This document shows positions 16,103-54,584 of a stretch of DNA of 64,000 nt, in pieces. Below the pieces are notes generated by a model. The model ran no database searches, had not been told where the DNA came from, and saw only the letters and a program-made list of their open reading frames with translations. Position 1 is the first letter of the stretch; every line of letters begins with the position of its first letter. The translations under genes and the position numbers were made by a program. Origin of the DNA: an uncultured Holosporaceae bacterium (GTDB lineage Bacteria > Pseudomonadota > Alphaproteobacteria > RUG11792); NCBI GenBank assembly GCA_946408175.1, contig CAMJRB010000002.1, positions 1 to 64,000 of the forward strand. Direction: 5' to 3'.

Positions 16103-16957
16103 ATGGAAAATATTCAGAGTATTAAAAATAGAATAAAAACTATAAATAATATTCAAAAAGCAGCTGATGCTATAAAAGTAATTTCTAGTATTAAATTATC
16201 TAATATTAGTAGAATTGATGTAGAGTCATTAAAAGCAAGTATAGAAATACTTAATAATACTTTATCAATAGTTGCAGCTGAGGCTTTATACTTTAATGAA
16301 TTAAATGATAAGCATTGGATAAGAAGAAACGCAGGTAAAAAATTATTAATAATATTATCAGTTGATCAAGGATTTTGTGGGTCTTTTAAACAATCACTAT
16401 CTGATTTAGCTATAGATTTTATCACTAAGAATAAAACATGTTATGTAGAAGTATTTGGGAAGAAATTACCATTAGTAAATAGTAATATAGTAATTGATAA
16501 TAATATCGAGAGAAATATAAAATCTAGATATAATTTAGAATTATTTTCTAATAAATTGAAGGAATTAATATTTCAATATGTTACTAAATATAATGTGCAC
16601 GAAGTATATGTAGTAAGTGGAGAATATAAAAGTGCTATGGTACAAACTACACAATGTTTTAAAATATTACCACTTACTATTAAAGACTTTAGAACTTTTA
16701 ATACTACTGAAATAAATACTAATAGAGTACAATTAATTGATTATTTATTAAATAGATATTTGTATACTTTATGTTTTGATATTGTTAGAGAACATTTATT
16801 GGCAGAATTATCAGTAAGAGTTTTTGCAGTGGATAAAACTTCAAAGAATGCTGATGATATGCAAAGGGAACTGACATTGCTCTATAATAGAACTAGACAA
16901 ACAAAAATAACCCAAGAACTAACTGAGATCGTTTCAAGTAGTGAATGCGTAAAGTAA
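16103..16957 (+). CDS. atpG: ATP synthase F1 gamma subunit
   Basis: 284 residues. The N-terminus S-I-K-N-R-I-K-T-I-N-N-I-Q-K-A-A-D-A and the central D-Q-G-F-C-G-S-F mark the gamma subunit. The C-terminal helix has E-L-T-L-L-Y-N-R-T-R-Q-T-K-I-T-Q-E-L-T-E-I. Gamma is the rotor shaft. In most alphaproteobacteria atpD and atpC follow. Here a repeat array follows directly, and the last codons (S-S-S-E-C-V-K) are encoded by sequence that recurs in the array (TTTCAAGTAGTGAATGCGTA at 16932 and again at 17001). atpD and atpC must be elsewhere or lost. Confidence 0.94.
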   Translation: MENIQSIKNRIKTINNIQKAADAIKVISSIKLSNISRIDVESLKASIEILNNTLSIVAAEALYFNELNDKHWIRRNAGKKLLIILSVDQGFCGSFKQSLSDLAIDFITKNKTCYVEVFGKKLPLVNSNIVIDNNIERNIKSRYNLELFSNKLKELIFQYVTKYNVHEVYVVSGEYKSAMVQTTQCFKILPLTIKDFRTFNTTEINTNRVQLIDYLLNRYLYTLCFDIVREHLLAELSVRVFAVDKTSKNADDMQRELTLLYNRTRQTKITQELTEIVSSSECVK

Positions 16958-17540
16958 TGTTACTAAACTAAAAATTGAAATGATCCGCGTTAGCAGATAA
17001 TTTCAAGTAGTGAATGCGTACGTTAGCATGCATCAAAGCTAATCGTTAGATTAGTTTAGTGTGTTAAGTAATTTTACTCTAGTATTACAAATAGAGACTA
17101 TTCGTGATAGCAAATTATTTCACGCAGTAAATACGTGCATTAGCATGCATCAAAGCTAATCGTTAGATTAGTTTAGTGTATTAAGTAATTTTAGTCTAGT
17201 ATTAAAATTGAAATGATCAGTGTAGGCAAATAGTATATGTATAAGATGACATTACATGTTAGCGTTAGGTATTATACGCTTAAGCAAATGATTTCAAGCA
17301 GTATACTATATATATAGTGTTATATATATATAACAAGGCTGAGCATTAGCTTAAAATAATATATTAAGTATTACTACTATTTATAAAATAGAATTTCCCG
17401 CGATAACAAATAATGCCAAGTAGTAATGAACATATAAGCAATTTATTTCAAGCATAGCAAGATACATGTAATATATAGCAGGCTAGGCATTAGCCTAGAT
17501 TAATGTATAAAGTATTATTACTATATTTATAAAATAAAAT
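16932..17540. repeat. Degenerate hairpin-bearing repeat array overlapping the atpG 3' end
   Basis: At least four related units. Units A and B are nearly identical from TTAGCATGCATCAAAGC to AGTCTAGTATTA. Units C and D are more diverged. Each carries a small hairpin at the same place: 17036-17057 and 17153-17174 (AAGCTAATC-GTTA-GATTAGTTT), about 17335-17352, and 17480-17496 (AGGCTA-GGCAT-TAGCCT). The stem sequence differs between A/B and D but pairing is kept. The TTTCAAG-AGT-A element recurs at 16932, 17001, 17118, 17292 and 17446. The rest of the 16958-17635 gap holds no gene. Confidence 0.6.
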
Positions 17541-17572
17541 AACATATTGTTACTGTATCTAAAAAATTTTAG

Positions 17573-17635: not shown

Positions 17636-19888
17636 TCATTTTATATTCTTGCTATTTTCACTTTGTGCAATATTATTAAGGGCTTCCCTGAACTTAATAA
17701 AGGATTCATTTGGTACTGAATTATTATCTTCTTTTGTTATCTTACTATCTTCACTTTCTTTTAAGATATCTTCATTTAGTTTTAGTAGTAAAGTATTACT
17801 ATCTATTGGATTATCATTTTCAATTTTTGTCATATTATTACGATTGTCAATTTGGTCACCATTATTAATAGCTTTACTTAAATTATAAAAAGAGTTATCT
17901 TGTAATGAATTATTATGTTCTTTTATTATCTTCTCATCTTCACTGTTTGGAATATTATTATTCTTTATAATTTGTGCACTATTATTAAGTTCGTCACGTG
18001 ACTTCAAAAAAGCATCATTTAGTATTGAATTACTATGTTCTTCTGTTATATTACTATCTTCATTTTGTTTAATATTCTTACTATTTTCACTTTGTTTAAT
18101 ATTTTCAATTGGTTCAATATTATTAAGGGCGTTCTTGAACTTAATAAAAGCTTCATTTGGTACTGCATTATTATTTTCTTTCTTTATATTATTACTGTTT
18201 TTATTATTATATTCATCTTTTATTTGTTGAAGTTGCTTGGTTGCATCTTTTAAATGCTCAATATAGACATTTAGCTTATAATTAATGTACTGTGCTAATT
18301 TGTCCGGCTTATCTTTAACATTATCATTTGTGATTATCATAGAAAGATAGTTGTTGCAATCAGATGATATGCTTTGTACCTTTGCACTACATGACATTAT
18401 TTGTTTAATAGTGTTTTGTGCAATATTTGTTGCATTCATAGTACTATTTTCTTTCTTTATATTACTATTTTCAATTTGGTCAACATTATTAATGTTATTA
18501 ATTGCATGCAAAATAGTGTTATTTGATAGTAAATTATTATGTTTGTCTATTATCTTACTACCTTCGTCTTGTTTTATATTATTAATCTTTTTATTCTTAT
18601 AATCTTCTTGTATTTGTTGAAGTTGCTCTGTCGCATCTGTTAAATGCTTAATATAGAAAATTAGAACCTTCTCCTCATTAATTTTCTTTGCTAATGCTCT
18701 CTGCTTATAGTCAAAATTAGAATTATTGATTATACTAGAAAGATATGCTTTCAAATTATCTGCTATGCGTAGTACTTTGTCACAACATACAATGGCTGGA
18801 TCAATAATTTTTTGTGCAATTTCTTTTGCATCCATAGTATTATTGTTAATTGACTGTTTTATATACTCTTCTATATACTCTTTTATATTTTGCATATCAT
18901 TTATAGTTATTAAGTGTATTTTATTTTGTAAATAATTAAGTAACTGTTGCCATGTAATAGTATTTATATTATCATTGTTAATATTAACTGTTTCTCCAGT
19001 TCCTTCCATAATATCAGTTAATTTTGCTATATTTTGTGAAGCTGATATATCTTGTAAGAAGTTGGCAAGATCATTGGCATGATTAGACAAATCAATGTCT
19101 AATTGTTGTAAACCTGAAATAATATTAGAGAGTTGTGACATTAATTTCTTTTTCAATATATCATGAATATTCTTACACTGATTATTATTACTAGAATCAT
19201 TATTCCCTAATAATTGTTGCAATTCTAAAATTTTCATATGAAGTTTTGAAATTAATTCATATTGTAAGACACTGTCGTACTTATAATAATAAGATACGTT
19301 CTCACTGATTTTTTGTAAGATACCAATAATATCATCACGTAGTAAATACGATCCTTCTATGAAATTGCTGTCATCATTATTATCAGCATAGTTCTGAAAT
19401 TCAGATAATTGGCGTAAGTAGGAATATTGATTAGAAATTAATCTCTCTATGTCTTGTGAACTGTTTTTTTTATAATTCAACCATACTTGTTGTAAGCTAA
19501 ACTCAATCCTATCACCTACATGTCTGCAGTATGTCATGCAACTATCAAGTTGTTGTATGATCTCATCAGAAACACCTACACTTTGTAACACTGGCTTGAA
19601 TGCATTAAAGTATACTATTAGTGAACTTCTTAACAAATCTTTAGTAAAGAAACTCTCATTCTCTATTGGTTGGCCATTCTTATCCACAATTATTTGGTTT
19701 CTCTTTAGCTCATCCTTAATATCTGCATCCATCTTTGATAATTCAGTTAATAATTTCTGTGACAATTCTTGATTTTGTGGAGAAAGAATCTTAGATTCCA
19801 TACAATAGCAACTACTACTATTTATAGCTGTTCCACAACTTAGTATTATTACTGAAGTTGTTAAAAAATTAAGGAAATTTTTACTCAT
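17636..19888 (-). CDS. Large secreted repeat-containing hypothetical protein
   Basis: 750 residues from the ATG at 19888, chosen because AAAGAAG lies just before it; the frame opens 8 codons earlier. The signal peptide ends S-S-S-C-Y-C-M-E-S. It is nearly identical, in DNA too, to that of the gene at 47522-48883, although the mature parts differ. The body is helical. A segment of about 95 residues is duplicated (about 350-440 and 480-570; Y-I-K-H-L-T-D-A-T-E-Q-L-Q-Q-I versus Y-I-E-H-L-K-D-A-T-K-Q-L-Q-Q-I). The C-terminus has four short degenerate repeats with an N-N-S-x-x-N-x-x-F core. No family recognised. A secreted effector or surface role is a guess from its architecture. Confidence 0.7.
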   Translation of the reverse strand: MSKNFLNFLTTSVIILSCGTAINSSSCYCMESKILSPQNQELSQKLLTELSKMDADIKDELKRNQIIVDKNGQPIENESFFTKDLLRSSLIVYFNAFKPVLQSVGVSDEIIQQLDSCMTYCRHVGDRIEFSLQQVWLNYKKNSSQDIERLISNQYSYLRQLSEFQNYADNNDDSNFIEGSYLLRDDIIGILQKISENVSYYYKYDSVLQYELISKLHMKILELQQLLGNNDSSNNNQCKNIHDILKKKLMSQLSNIISGLQQLDIDLSNHANDLANFLQDISASQNIAKLTDIMEGTGETVNINNDNINTITWQQLLNYLQNKIHLITINDMQNIKEYIEEYIKQSINNNTMDAKEIAQKIIDPAIVCCDKVLRIADNLKAYLSSIINNSNFDYKQRALAKKINEEKVLIFYIKHLTDATEQLQQIQEDYKNKKINNIKQDEGSKIIDKHNNLLSNNTILHAINNINNVDQIENSNIKKENSTMNATNIAQNTIKQIMSCSAKVQSISSDCNNYLSMIITNDNVKDKPDKLAQYINYKLNVYIEHLKDATKQLQQIKDEYNNKNSNNIKKENNNAVPNEAFIKFKNALNNIEPIENIKQSENSKNIKQNEDSNITEEHSNSILNDAFLKSRDELNNSAQIIKNNNIPNSEDEKIIKEHNNSLQDNSFYNLSKAINNGDQIDNRNNMTKIENDNPIDSNTLLLKLNEDILKESEDSKITKEDNNSVPNESFIKFREALNNIAQSENSKNIK

Positions 19889-20156
19889 TATTACTTCTTT
19901 AAAATACAACATACTTCATTATATATTCTAAGATAGATTGGCAAAATAATCAAGTTTAAAATGTTGATCTTATGTAAAGTAAATAAAATGATTAATAGAA
20001 TAAATAGAAAAATATATAAAATATAAAATATTAAATGAAATATACATTAACTATTCTCTATTAATTATAAAGTATATTTAAATAAAATGAACAATTGAAA
20101 AAAATTAACTATTATTAATAGCTGTAATTATACACATTATCCATTATACATAGTGG

Positions 20157-20394
20157 TATATTAGCAATTATATATAATGCTATATTAGCAATTATATATA
20201 ATGATCCATCAGCAATTATATAGGATTATATATCAGCAGTAATACATGATTATATCAGCAGTAATATATGATTGATATACCAACAATTATATATGATGAT
20301 GTATCAGTAGTAATACATTATTATATACCAACAACTGTATATGATATATATATCAGTAGTAATACATTATAATATATCAGCAATTATATATTGA
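20157..20394. repeat. Array of about ten degenerate repeats of about 25 bp
   Basis: Units follow a pattern near TATATCAGCAATTATATATGAT, alternating AGCAATTATATAT with AGCAGTAATACAT and ACCAACAATTATA variants. It lies between the divergent starts of the secreted-protein gene (19888) and lon (20535). The remainder of 19913-20534 is plain AT-rich sequence. It may be a decayed simple repeat or a protein-binding region. Confidence 0.55.
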
Positions 20395-42200: not shown

Positions 42201-44168
42201 ATGAATAGACTGTATATTGTATTTATTACATTATTATTATACTGTAATAATTGTGTAAATTCTTGGCAATTATTTGATAGTAAGGATATTTTTAAAAAAT
42301 TACAGGATTCATCAACAAAAGATATAAAAAATACTGATTGGAAAAGGATAGTTGAAAAAAAATCTTCAAGTGTAGTTTTAATATATACAATTAGCGATAA
42401 AGGCAAAGATAAATATAACTTTTATAATTCTGCAATACAACCACGTATTAATAAAACAGATTACAAATATGGAGTAACTAATGGAGTGATTGTGTCACCT
42501 GATGGAATAGTAGTAACAACCTATACAGCTACTATGAATTCAGATAAATACATAGTAGTAATAGATAGTGAAAAAAATCAAGATGATGAATCGTATGAAA
42601 TAAATGGGTATGTAGACGAAATAAATGAAGATAAAGAACAAATAGATTGTGAAGACGATATAGAAGAAGATTCAATAGAAACAGATGCTGAAACTGATAA
42701 TGAGGATGAAGAAGAGAATGAAGATGCAAAACCATCTTATACCATAGATAATTTGGATGATGAAACTACAGATATAAATTCAATGGAAACAGATGCTGAA
42801 ACTGATAATGAGGATGAAGAAGAGAATAAAGATGCAAAACCATCTGATATCATAGATAATTGGTATGATGACAATACAGAGCTAAATTCATTAGAAACAG
42901 AAGTAAAAACTGATAATGAAGATATAGAAGAAAAATCAAATAACAGTACTATAATAGAAACTGAAGAGAATATTAATAAAAGCAATGACAATAATAGTAT
43001 AAAAACAGATAAGGCGAGTATAAATCAATCAGAACAATTAAATTCTAATAGAAAAAAGTCACCTATAGTAGAAACTCGGCAATCTGATTCTGAACTAATA
43101 AATTTAAGTAAAGAATTAGAATTAATGAATAAGAAACTCAAAAAAATTAAATTAAAAAATAAAAATGGCATAATACATAACCATGACAATTGTAATAACA
43201 AAATAAATAAAAAGAAAAAATCAAATATACAATTGGATAATAATACATACTATGCAGAAGTATTAACTGCTATTCCTGAGTTAAATATTGTTGTTCTCAA
43301 ATTACAATGTAATAAAAGTGAAAAATTTAATCATTTTAATATAATTAATGATTCGTTTTTTCAAACAAAAACTGAAAAAGAAACAATTTTATTAGATAGT
43401 GCTATAGTAGTAGGAAAATGTAGAGGAGAACACTATGTACACGCTCGTAGACCCTATAATTCAAAAAATAAATTTGATATTACAAAATCAATGGTAGGAA
43501 GCATTGCATATAAAACAATAGACGGACTTCCTACCTTGATACTATATACTCCAATGGTCGGTAGTGTATTTCCAGAAAATCAAGGAGGCGCTATTATACG
43601 GAGTGATGGAGAATTAATTGGTATTCCTTGTGGAAATTGGAGTATTAGCAATTACAAGAATAATAAAAAATCTAGAATAATATACTATGATTGTTTTTCA
43701 AATATTCCCCAAAGTTATGCTATCCCAGCATCAACAATAAAAAAAATATTATCGCTAATATCTCTTAAATTGCCTGGTCCTATAAACCCGCATTGTGGTA
43801 TCACTGTTGAAAAGCTTGAGTCCCCTCAAAAGAAATTTTTAAAAGCATTCTTTGATAAGAGTCGTAAAGACTTAAAAAATGAATATTTAAAAAAATTACA
43901 GAATACTTATGGTTTCGAGAATTACTCATCCATTTCCAAATACATTAATAATGGCCAGCTTGGTGTTGCTGTAAGTAAAATTACATCAGAATCACCAGCT
44001 GAGAAGGCAAATATTCATACAGGAGATATTCTATTAAATCTCAATACAGAATGTATTACGAAGCCTAAAACTTTTTATAATCTTGAGGCTGACAATATTG
44101 ATAAATCTGTTATTAATTTAACATTGCTTAGAAAAAACGAACTTGTAATAATGGAAGTTAAAAGATAA
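42201..44168 (+). CDS. Exported HtrA/DegP-like protein with lost catalytic triad and a PDZ domain
   Basis: 655 residues; signal peptide ending N-C-V-N-S. The trypsin-like fold aligns by eye with DegP: N-G-V-I-V-S-P-D-G-I-V-V-T-T-Y-T (94-109), P-E-L-N-I-V-V-L-K-L (about 360), E-N-Q-G-G-A-I-I-R-S-D-G-E-L-I-G-I (from 459) and Y-A-I-P. The catalytic His position is T109, Asp is N362, and Ser is Q461, so proteolysis is unlikely. An acidic, repeat-bearing insertion of about 200 residues separates the first two catalytic positions. A PDZ domain (G-V-A-V-S-K-I-T-S-E-S-P-A-E-K-A, G-D-I-L-L-N-L-N) ends the protein. The gene is 6 bp after tssC. A chaperone or scaffold role is inferred; no precedent in T6SS loci is known to me. 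Confidence 0.75.
   Translation: MNRLYIVFITLLLYCNNCVNSWQLFDSKDIFKKLQDSSTKDIKNTDWKRIVEKKSSSVVLIYTISDKGKDKYNFYNSAIQPRINKTDYKYGVTNGVIVSPDGIVVTTYTATMNSDKYIVVIDSEKNQDDESYEINGYVDEINEDKEQIDCEDDIEEDSIETDAETDNEDEEENEDAKPSYTIDNLDDETTDINSMETDAETDNEDEEENKDAKPSDIIDNWYDDNTELNSLETEVKTDNEDIEEKSNNSTIIETEENINKSNDNNSIKTDKASINQSEQLNSNRKKSPIVETRQSDSELINLSKELELMNKKLKKIKLKNKNGIIHNHDNCNNKINKKKKSNIQLDNNTYYAEVLTAIPELNIVVLKLQCNKSEKFNHFNIINDSFFQTKTEKETILLDSAIVVGKCRGEHYVHARRPYNSKNKFDITKSMVGSIAYKTIDGLPTLILYTPMVGSVFPENQGGAIIRSDGELIGIPCGNWSISNYKNNKKSRIIYYDCFSNIPQSYAIPASTIKKILSLISLKLPGPINPHCGITVEKLESPQKKFLKAFFDKSRKDLKNEYLKKLQNTYGFENYSSISKYINNGQLGVAVSKITSESPAEKANIHTGDILLNLNTECITKPKTFYNLEADNIDKSVINLTLLRKNELVIMEVKR
42672..42950 (+). 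repeat. 108-bp in-frame tandem repeat encoding an acidic 36-residue unit
   Basis: Units start at 42672, 42780 and 42888, exactly 108 bp apart. The first two are almost identical at DNA level; the third is partial and diverged. Each encodes S-x-E-T-D-A-E-T-D-N-E-D-E-E-E-N followed by a D-A-K-P-S and I-D-N segment. The copy number could change by slippage without breaking the frame. Confidence 0.8.
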
Positions 44169-52640: not shown

Positions 52641-54584
52641 TTATTGTTCTTGAAAATACTGCTGTAAATTGTTGATAAATTGTTTATGTATATTTTTTAA
52701 ATACTCATAACACAAATCATATACATGTTTATATATGTCAGCCTTAATCTTTTTGAAGTTCTTAAAATGCACATCATACACTAATTTTTGACAATATAAT
52801 GCTAATAAACAAGCTTTATATAATAAAATTTCATCTTTATTTAAAACACTAGTCTTGTATTTTACATATAATTTTGCTCCTATTTCTTGCAAATACCAAG
52901 GATTCTGTTTTATTTGTAAATTATTGTTAATATCATCTTTATTTAAAACATCAGTATTGTATTTTATATATGATTTTGCTTCTATTTCTGAAACATCCAA
53001 TAGATTGTTCTCATTTTGTAAATTATCATTATTTATTAAGTTATATATGTATTCTACTACTTTAGTAGTATCATTTAAGTCATTTTTAATATTTTCAATA
53101 AGATCATCAGTGTTATATTTGGCTACTGTATTGAATATGTTTCGTAGTTTTTTAAATAATGTAAAATATTCCTCTTTATTTATTTTTTCATATTCCTTAG
53201 TTTCTATTTTATTTAGTGGTATTTCCTGTATAGTTACATCTATTATCTCACTAATTGCTTGATATATGTCTTCTATATCATTTTTGTCTTTGGGGAATGC
53301 TGAATATGTATCATGAAGTACATTGTCCAATTTATCATATACGCCTTTTAAGACTGGAATGTTTTGTATCATATGCAATGCTGTATAGAGTACATGTTTT
53401 GAATCTGCAAAATCCTTATCATTAATTGTATGGAAAGTATCTAACATATTCTTAGTTTCAGTTGTTGCCTTTTGCTTAATTATGTTATTTGTTAAATTAT
53501 ACCAAAACATGAACTGATCTGCAGAGTATTGAGATTTAGGTATACATTTCATACAATCATTTATTGCGAAAGCCAATGGTTTATAAACTCGTAAACACTC
53601 TTTAAATGTAAGTTTGTCATTTGCCTTTTTATTCTGATCTTTTATTTTACTTTCTTTTATTGTATTTTCATTTGAACTATATTGTTCAATTGGAGCTGGA
53701 GGATATTTTATATTCTTTATCTTTTGTAATATATTAATAAAAACCTTATGATCATAATACAGTGTATTTTCATATTCCAGATAATTTGTATTAATTTTGG
53801 TATCATTATATTCCAGTGCTGCTAAGTCACTTATTAAATTATTATATGTATATTCTTCTTTTAATTCCTTAAGGCATGATTTAGTAATTTTTATATTGCG
53901 TTTAATTAAATTAAATAATTTATTTTCTTGTGTATTATTTTTTTTGCGTGGTATTGCTACATCACACTCATATTGATAATTATTCATTCTAAAATTTATG
54001 TGTTTTGAAAACCATTCCATATTTTCTATATCATTTATATCCAGCTTGTCTTTCTCATTTGTAATTAAATTATTTAAGGTAAGTTTTAAAGAAAAAATAT
54101 TACTGATATTTAAATGATGAAGATAAAAATATTTTAAATGAAAATAACTATTACGATAATTAGATATCTTTATTTCATCATCCACTATGTATTTATATAT
54201 AACATCCATTACTTTATCATCATCAAAATTATTATTGTTCTTTAATAGAAAAATATTGACATGTTCTAAATAGTTTTTAAATTGAATTTCATTACTACTA
54301 ACCTCTCTATAATTATTAGTTGCTAATTGTAAATCCCATAAATTTTTATAAGTATTAATAGTGTTTTCTTTTAAAGTGTCAATTGATTCATCATCTAGTT
54401 TTGTATTTTGTAAATTATTTAGATAATTCTTACTATTATTTAAACTAGTTTCGAAGTTTTTCTGTAACTGTACAGTAGTACAATTTACTTGATTTAATGC
54501 ATTATTTATATTACTATTAATTTCCATTGATATACATGAAGATAATAAACATGTACATATTGGTAATAATTTATTAATTAACAT
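52641..54584 (-). CDS. Secreted hypothetical protein with a C-terminal duplicated segment
   Basis: 647 residues; AAGGGGG lies 9 bases before the ATG. The signal peptide ends L-L-S-S-C-I-S-M-E. The body is helical and Lys/Asn-rich. A segment of about 32 residues near 540-600 is duplicated (S-Y-I-K-Y-N-T-D-V-L-N-K-D-D and L-Y-V-K-Y-K-T-S-V-L-N-K-D-E). A P-P-A-P-I-E-Q linker and the K-E-C-L-R-V-Y-K-P-L-A-F-A-I-N-D-C region lie in the middle. It is 48 bp downstream of the next minus-strand gene, so they likely form an operon. No family recognised. Confidence 0.65.
   Translation of the reverse strand: MLINKLLPICTCLLSSCISMEINSNINNALNQVNCTTVQLQKNFETSLNNSKNYLNNLQNTKLDDESIDTLKENTINTYKNLWDLQLATNNYREVSSNEIQFKNYLEHVNIFLLKNNNNFDDDKVMDVIYKYIVDDEIKISNYRNSYFHLKYFYLHHLNISNIFSLKLTLNNLITNEKDKLDINDIENMEWFSKHINFRMNNYQYECDVAIPRKKNNTQENKLFNLIKRNIKITKSCLKELKEEYTYNNLISDLAALEYNDTKINTNYLEYENTLYYDHKVFINILQKIKNIKYPPAPIEQYSSNENTIKESKIKDQNKKANDKLTFKECLRVYKPLAFAINDCMKCIPKSQYSADQFMFWYNLTNNIIKQKATTETKNMLDTFHTINDKDFADSKHVLYTALHMIQNIPVLKGVYDKLDNVLHDTYSAFPKDKNDIEDIYQAISEIIDVTIQEIPLNKIETKEYEKINKEEYFTLFKKLRNIFNTVAKYNTDDLIENIKNDLNDTTKVVEYIYNLINNDNLQNENNLLDVSEIEAKSYIKYNTDVLNKDDINNNLQIKQNPWYLQEIGAKLYVKYKTSVLNKDEILLYKACLLALYCQKLVYDVHFKNFKKIKADIYKHVYDLCYEYLKNIHKQFINNLQQYFQEQ

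Follow-up and report, generated by a model that had tools for sequence, protein, structure and literature searches.

A repeat array behind atpG in an uncultured Holosporaceae bacterium as the probable product of tandem duplication of the gene's 3' end

Introduction

Behind the atpG gene of an uncultured Holosporaceae bacterium lies an array of hairpin-bearing repeats whose first element overlaps the last codons of the gene. An earlier note on this DNA suggested that the repeats form part of the protein end, that their hairpins are under selection and that the array marks a break in the ATP synthase operon. How did such an array arise, and does it serve any of these roles? The locus was analyzed within a window of 64,000 nucleotides (contig CAMJRB010000002.1, positions 1 to 64,000, assembly GCA_946408175.1). 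The genome of the window (G000) was compared with one other genome of the same genus (G001, the sister genome), with two genomes from another genus in the family (G007 and G021) and with atpG loci across the family. The results indicate that the array very probably arose when the 3' end of atpG was repeatedly duplicated in tandem and the copies wore down, and that it is one case of a habit seen in both genomes of the genus.

Organization of the repeat array behind atpG

The spacer behind atpG is 678 bases long and ends at the stop codon of a convergent ORF. The array, which spans 16926-17553, consists of four long and about three partial units arranged head-to-tail on the + strand (Table 1). 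The earlier note had described a hairpin-bearing repeat array that starts with an element inside the last atpG codons, and this description was confirmed. The atpG tail at 16926-16951 is repeated at 16995-17020, 69 bp downstream, with 24 of 26 bases identical. A 153-nt stretch starting 11 nt before the end of the atpG stop codon is repeated 114 bp downstream with 81% identity (153 columns). At 17334 and 17478, the diverged units carry 37-nt cores that share 73% and 70% identity, respectively, with the reference core.

Table 1. Coordinates of atpG, the repeat units, their hairpin cores and the convergent ORF in the window.
Feature	Position	Strand	Description and basis
atpG (F1 gamma subunit)	16103-16957	+	284 aa, standard C-terminus; Pfam PF00231 (ATP-synt), E 1.7e-46, and alignment with relatives
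Unit 0 (source)	16926-16994	+	last atpG codons, stop codon and first 37 nt behind; tail recurrence, unit-model match E 0.02
Unit 1	16995-17111	+	hairpin-bearing insert between tail copy and stop-codon region
Unit 1 hairpin core	17039-17054	+	6-bp stem, 4-nt loop
Unit 2	17112-17227	+	85-89% identical to unit 1
Unit 2 hairpin core	17156-17171	+	letters identical to unit 1
Putative partial decayed unit	17228-17285	+	boundaries by eye from aligned unit heads
Unit 3, diverged	17286-17407	+	
Unit 3 hairpin core, weak	17339-17354	+	1 of 6 pairs broken
Putative partial decayed unit	17408-17439	+	boundaries by eye
Unit 4, diverged	17440-17553	+	second part shares 80% identity with unit 3
Unit 4 hairpin core	17483-17498	+	2 pairs changed on both sides relative to units 1-2
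758-aa ORF	17636-19912	-	convergent with atpG, internal repeats, no Pfam match

Aligned with the spacer, the atpG tail scores 42, while the best score among 500 dinucleotide shuffles is 27. Similarities between units were evaluated against 300 dinucleotide shuffles per pair. Unit pairs 1-2 (score 141, best shuffle 34) and 3-4 (score 74, best shuffle 49) are both clear, and pair 2-4 is marginal (score 37, best shuffle 36). Pairs 1-3, 1-4 and 2-3 stand only at the top of the null distribution, equaled by 3, 1 and 1 of the 300 shuffles, respectively. The kinship of units 1-2 with units 3-4 draws partly on the shared order of their pieces and on the sister genome.

The atpG tail as the source of the array

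An overlap between a gene and a repeat can be read in two directions, and the earlier note had taken the AtpG C-terminus to be partly made of repeat sequence. Comparison with relatives returned a standard C-terminus, an outcome that had been named beforehand as speaking against that view. The motif ITQELTEI and the residues before it are invariant in the AtpG C-terminus of 10 aligned relatives, and the AtpG tails are alike, with small changes only, in all 21 family tails that are readable. No copy of the tail was detected downstream of atpG in 19 other family loci (scores of 14-20, whereas the window reaches 42 and the sister genome 36). Conservation of the C-terminus in family members that do not have the array rules out a repeat-made protein end. 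Taken together, the standard C-terminus and the 19 loci without a tail copy argue that the coding tail of atpG is the source and the array is the copy. Judged from these alignments, copying ran from gene to spacer, the reverse of the direction first proposed.

Comparison with the sister genome

The AtpG of the sister genome is 79% identical to that of the window, and a related, decayed array lies in the same place behind its atpG gene, with three diverged units and repeats at 71-73% in the spacer. The atpG tails of the two species differ at 5 of 26 bases, and the sister spacer copies the tail of its own atpG (18 of 18 bases). The first junction of the window's array aligns with the sister spacer at 72% identity over 71 columns. 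The arrays differ in make-up between the two species, each represented by one genome. Since the sister genome has a related array in the same place, the array is probably older than the divergence of the two species, each of which would then have undergone copying or exchange of its own.

Further units were sought with BLAST and with a covariance model built from the four long units, which scored 150 of 2562 first-look candidates in the genome of the window and 150 of 2288 in the sister genome. The model matched five places in its own genome, all of them within the array and the atpG tail, and no match was found elsewhere among the 150 candidates scored. BLAST of units 1-2 against the same genome gave only weak matches outside the array (E 0.2 or worse). 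Further units, for which the earlier note had proposed a genome-wide search, did not appear; as far as BLAST and the model looked, the units are unique to this place. The two best matches of the model in the sister genome are the atpG end and the atpG spacer (E 1.3 and 1.7), and the next ones lie elsewhere (E 2.2 and 7.8). Their support therefore comes from position and not from score.

These searches bear on a possible mobile origin of the hairpin insert, as a small palindromic element of the REP type or of the kind known from Rickettsia that inserted into a tail copy. In units 1 and 2 the insert is flanked by the tail copy and the stop-codon region, and it has a matching place in the sister genome, which would suit such an element. 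However, no second location emerged: BLAST matches outside the array were weak (E 0.2 or worse), and the model matched five array places only (150 of 2562 candidates scored). We consider this origin highly improbable, and a dispersed palindromic element is rejected as far as the genome was searched.

Hairpins and folding of the array

The earlier note had also reported a hairpin at the same place in four units, with stem bases that differ among them. This holds for units 1, 2 and 4, whose cores are more stable than their shuffles (z of -3.67, -4.32 and -2.71, respectively), and does not hold for unit 3, which shows no stability above shuffles (z -0.39). In the best common register, the stem reads CTAATC/GATTAG in units 1-2 and CTAGGC/GCCTAG in unit 4. 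The pair AGGCTA/TAGCCT, given previously as one of the stems, lies in a different register in which 235 of 500 shuffles are equally good, and it was rejected as a conserved helix.

The differing stems had been taken as a hint of selection for pairing, and the signal found here is weak. In the alignment register 6-11 with 16-21, two of the six pairs are doubly changed (T-A to G-C and A-T to G-C) and one cell is broken; 21 of 500 shuffles match this covariation, which comes from four sequences, two of them nearly identical. Covariation is not clearly absent. When four random substitutions were placed on the 12 stem positions, all six pairs survived in 1.2% of trials, a figure that leaves the choice of helix unaccounted for. 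Template switching at quasi-palindromes can yield such double changes without selection.

Selection could nevertheless act on the hairpin units as RNA structures, either as 3'-end stabilizers of an atpHAG transcript or as terminators between the convergent atpG (+) and 758-aa (-) genes. Stable hairpins in units 1, 2 and 4 and the two doubly changed pairs are consistent with such a role, and the whole atpG spacers of both species fold better than shuffles (z -4.35, 0 of 20 shuffles; z -3.29, 1 of 100 shuffles). In addition, the - strand has two terminator-like sites where 0.2 are expected. Both lie downstream of the 758-aa gene, and one of them (17497-17479) overlaps the unit 4 hairpin. However, no terminator-like site was found on the + strand, and in the sister units neither inspection by eye nor minimum-energy folds revealed a clear matching hairpin. 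In the sister genome, the next ORF runs in the same direction as atpG. Moreover, the pairing signal comes from four sequences including the unstable unit 3, and the double changes could have arisen unselected. An Rfam search of the window at the gathering score returned two tRNAs only, neither within the array, so the array matched no known RNA family. Selection of the units as RNA structures is on balance unlikely, although room is left for a terminator or 3'-end role of some of the hairpins.

Neighboring genes and the operon break

The earlier note placed the array where atpD and atpC are usually found and suggested that it marks the break of the operon. The first part is borne out for atpD, which follows atpG in 14 of the 21 family loci whose downstream DNA is readable. 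In both genomes of the genus, atpD is located on another contig and the array sits at the break, as would be expected if the array marked or caused the separation of atpG and atpD. However, atpD is absent from this position in the other 7 of the 21 loci, and in five of these, all from outside the genus, a tail copy is missing (scores of 14 to 20, vs. 42 and 36). The genes behind the array also differ between the two species, with a different ORF, in the same direction as atpG, following the array in the sister genome. The five loci that have the break and no copies indicate that break and array are separate matters; a role of the array in the break is therefore very hard to sustain, and the array is rejected as an operon-break marker. 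At another locus (L059:882-2877), the position of atpC behind atpD is taken by a 137-aa ORF that matches no Pfam family at E 0.001.

Gene-end duplications elsewhere in the genus

A gene-end survey compared the last 60 nt of ORFs of at least 150 aa with the spacer behind them in samples of the genomes, using a score cut-off of 36. Downstream copies of 3' ends scoring at least 36 were found at 4 of 152 genes in G000 (0.47 expected from swapped spacers) and at 7 of 99 in the sister genome (0.17 expected). For 5' ends, the corresponding counts are 2 of 148 (0.53 expected) and 1 of 101 (0.20 expected). No 3' end with a copy was found in the samples of G007 (0 of 27) and G021 (0 of 46). A looser gene set gave 5 of 176 and 7 of 117 3' ends scoring at least 36, with controls of 0.2 and 0.0 and reverse-strand controls of 1 and 1. 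Pooled, 11 of 251 3' ends and 3 of 249 5' ends carry copies (p 0.054), which is no more than suggestive of a bias of gene-end duplications toward the 3' end.

Among the 13 best 3' cases, the two atpG genes included, 11 contain a direct repeat, one copy of which begins within the coding sequence, and the other two were not reproduced as tail-spanning repeats. Ten of these genes were scanned for domains and encode ordinary housekeeping domains. Genes with end copies include those for an rRNA methyltransferase, a lysyl-tRNA synthetase, an amino acid kinase, a radical SAM protein, a pseudouridine synthase, an M16 peptidase and an MFS transporter, among others. At L067:11379-11514, a fresh-looking tandem duplication (78 columns, 88% identity, shift 61) spans the stop codon of a gene resembling an rRNA methyltransferase.

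The atpG gene is the sole gene-end case shared between the two species among those compared. None of the four G001 genes examined (M16, outer membrane efflux protein, Tim44-like and MFS) has a tail copy in its orthologue in the G000 sample, and this lack of sharing points to fast turnover.

Repeats also occur in the spacers at large. Self-repeats scoring at least 40 were detected in 8 of 132 and 8 of 91 spacers of at least 200 nt in the two genomes of the genus, and in 1 of 57 in the relatives; one shuffle of each spacer set gave no self-repeat at this score. The comparison genomes have higher G+C contents (0.316 and 0.334, vs. 0.261), and their spacers are fewer and shorter, so that composition and length account for part of the contrast.

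Other repeats occur in the window. An AT-rich minisatellite-like array with periods of 22-95 nt occupies 20136-20391, between the 758-aa ORF and lon, and further tandem arrays lie at 42670-42931 (period 108 nt) and 52827-53026 (period 102 nt). The segment at 20035-20066, some 470-500 bases upstream of lon (start 20535), resembles the initial codons of that gene (score 35) and may be a gene-start counterpart of the gene-end copies.

Proposed origin of the array

We propose that a stretch containing the last ~9 codons of atpG, the stop codon and DNA behind it would first have been copied downstream. A copy bearing a palindrome-rich insert of 40-60 nt would subsequently have multiplied as a unit of ~117 nt, and the units would then have diverged and, as we infer, partly exchanged sequence. 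Slippage or unequal recombination may have driven the copying. More generally, DNA behind genes in this genus would grow via tandem duplication across gene ends and then decay. The first copy keeps the stop codon and the protein is therefore untouched, so such duplications should be close to neutral. The repeats are probably without a function of their own and would represent unstable and largely neutral intergenic DNA.

The locus provides an example of noncoding DNA behind genes growing from a gene's own coding tail, in an uncultured lineage whose genomes are reduced and AT-rich. It also calls for caution in annotation, since such repeats can pass for a protein end built from repeats, for a regulatory RNA or for the marker of an operon break. 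A bolder extension would make gene 3' ends in this genus preferred birthplaces of noncoding tandem arrays, with hairpin units then kept for ending or protecting transcripts and with 3' untranslated regions growing from the coding tail. We hold this extension to be quite unlikely; if gene 3' ends were indeed preferred starts, they would offer a simple route to new 3' untranslated regions.

Comparison with known systems

The units resemble REP and RPE palindromic repeats in having palindromic cores in intergenic DNA. However, those repeats exist as many copies dispersed in the genome, and the units of the window are not dispersed (BLAST; unit model, 150 of 2562 candidates scored). Hairpins behind a gene and the two terminator-like sites on the - strand recall intrinsic terminators and 3'-end stabilizing hairpins, but none is present on the + strand here and the hairpins are not clearly kept in the sister genome.

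On the best reading, the array comes closest to the intergenic tandem repeats of Ehrlichia ruminantium. The repeats of E. ruminantium are described as including gene pieces, and those found here likewise include them (the atpG tail copies and 11 of the 13 best gene-end cases). The array of the window, like the repeats in other spacers, consists of head-to-tail repeats in noncoding DNA, as in E. ruminantium. The E. ruminantium genome has a coding density of ~64%, and tandem repeats in its long noncoding regions expand and contract (PMC10710844). E. ruminantium would share with the present genus a small AT-rich genome whose long noncoding regions grow through tandem repeats. In E. ruminantium the copy number differs among strains; here, with one genome per species, the arrays of the two species differ in make-up. 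By a simple ORF caller, ORFs cover 0.787 and 0.716 of the samples from this genus and 0.829 and 0.864 of those from the related genus. Unlike E. ruminantium, the present bacterium belongs to another lineage, and its repeat units are diverged, several of them starting from gene 3' ends.
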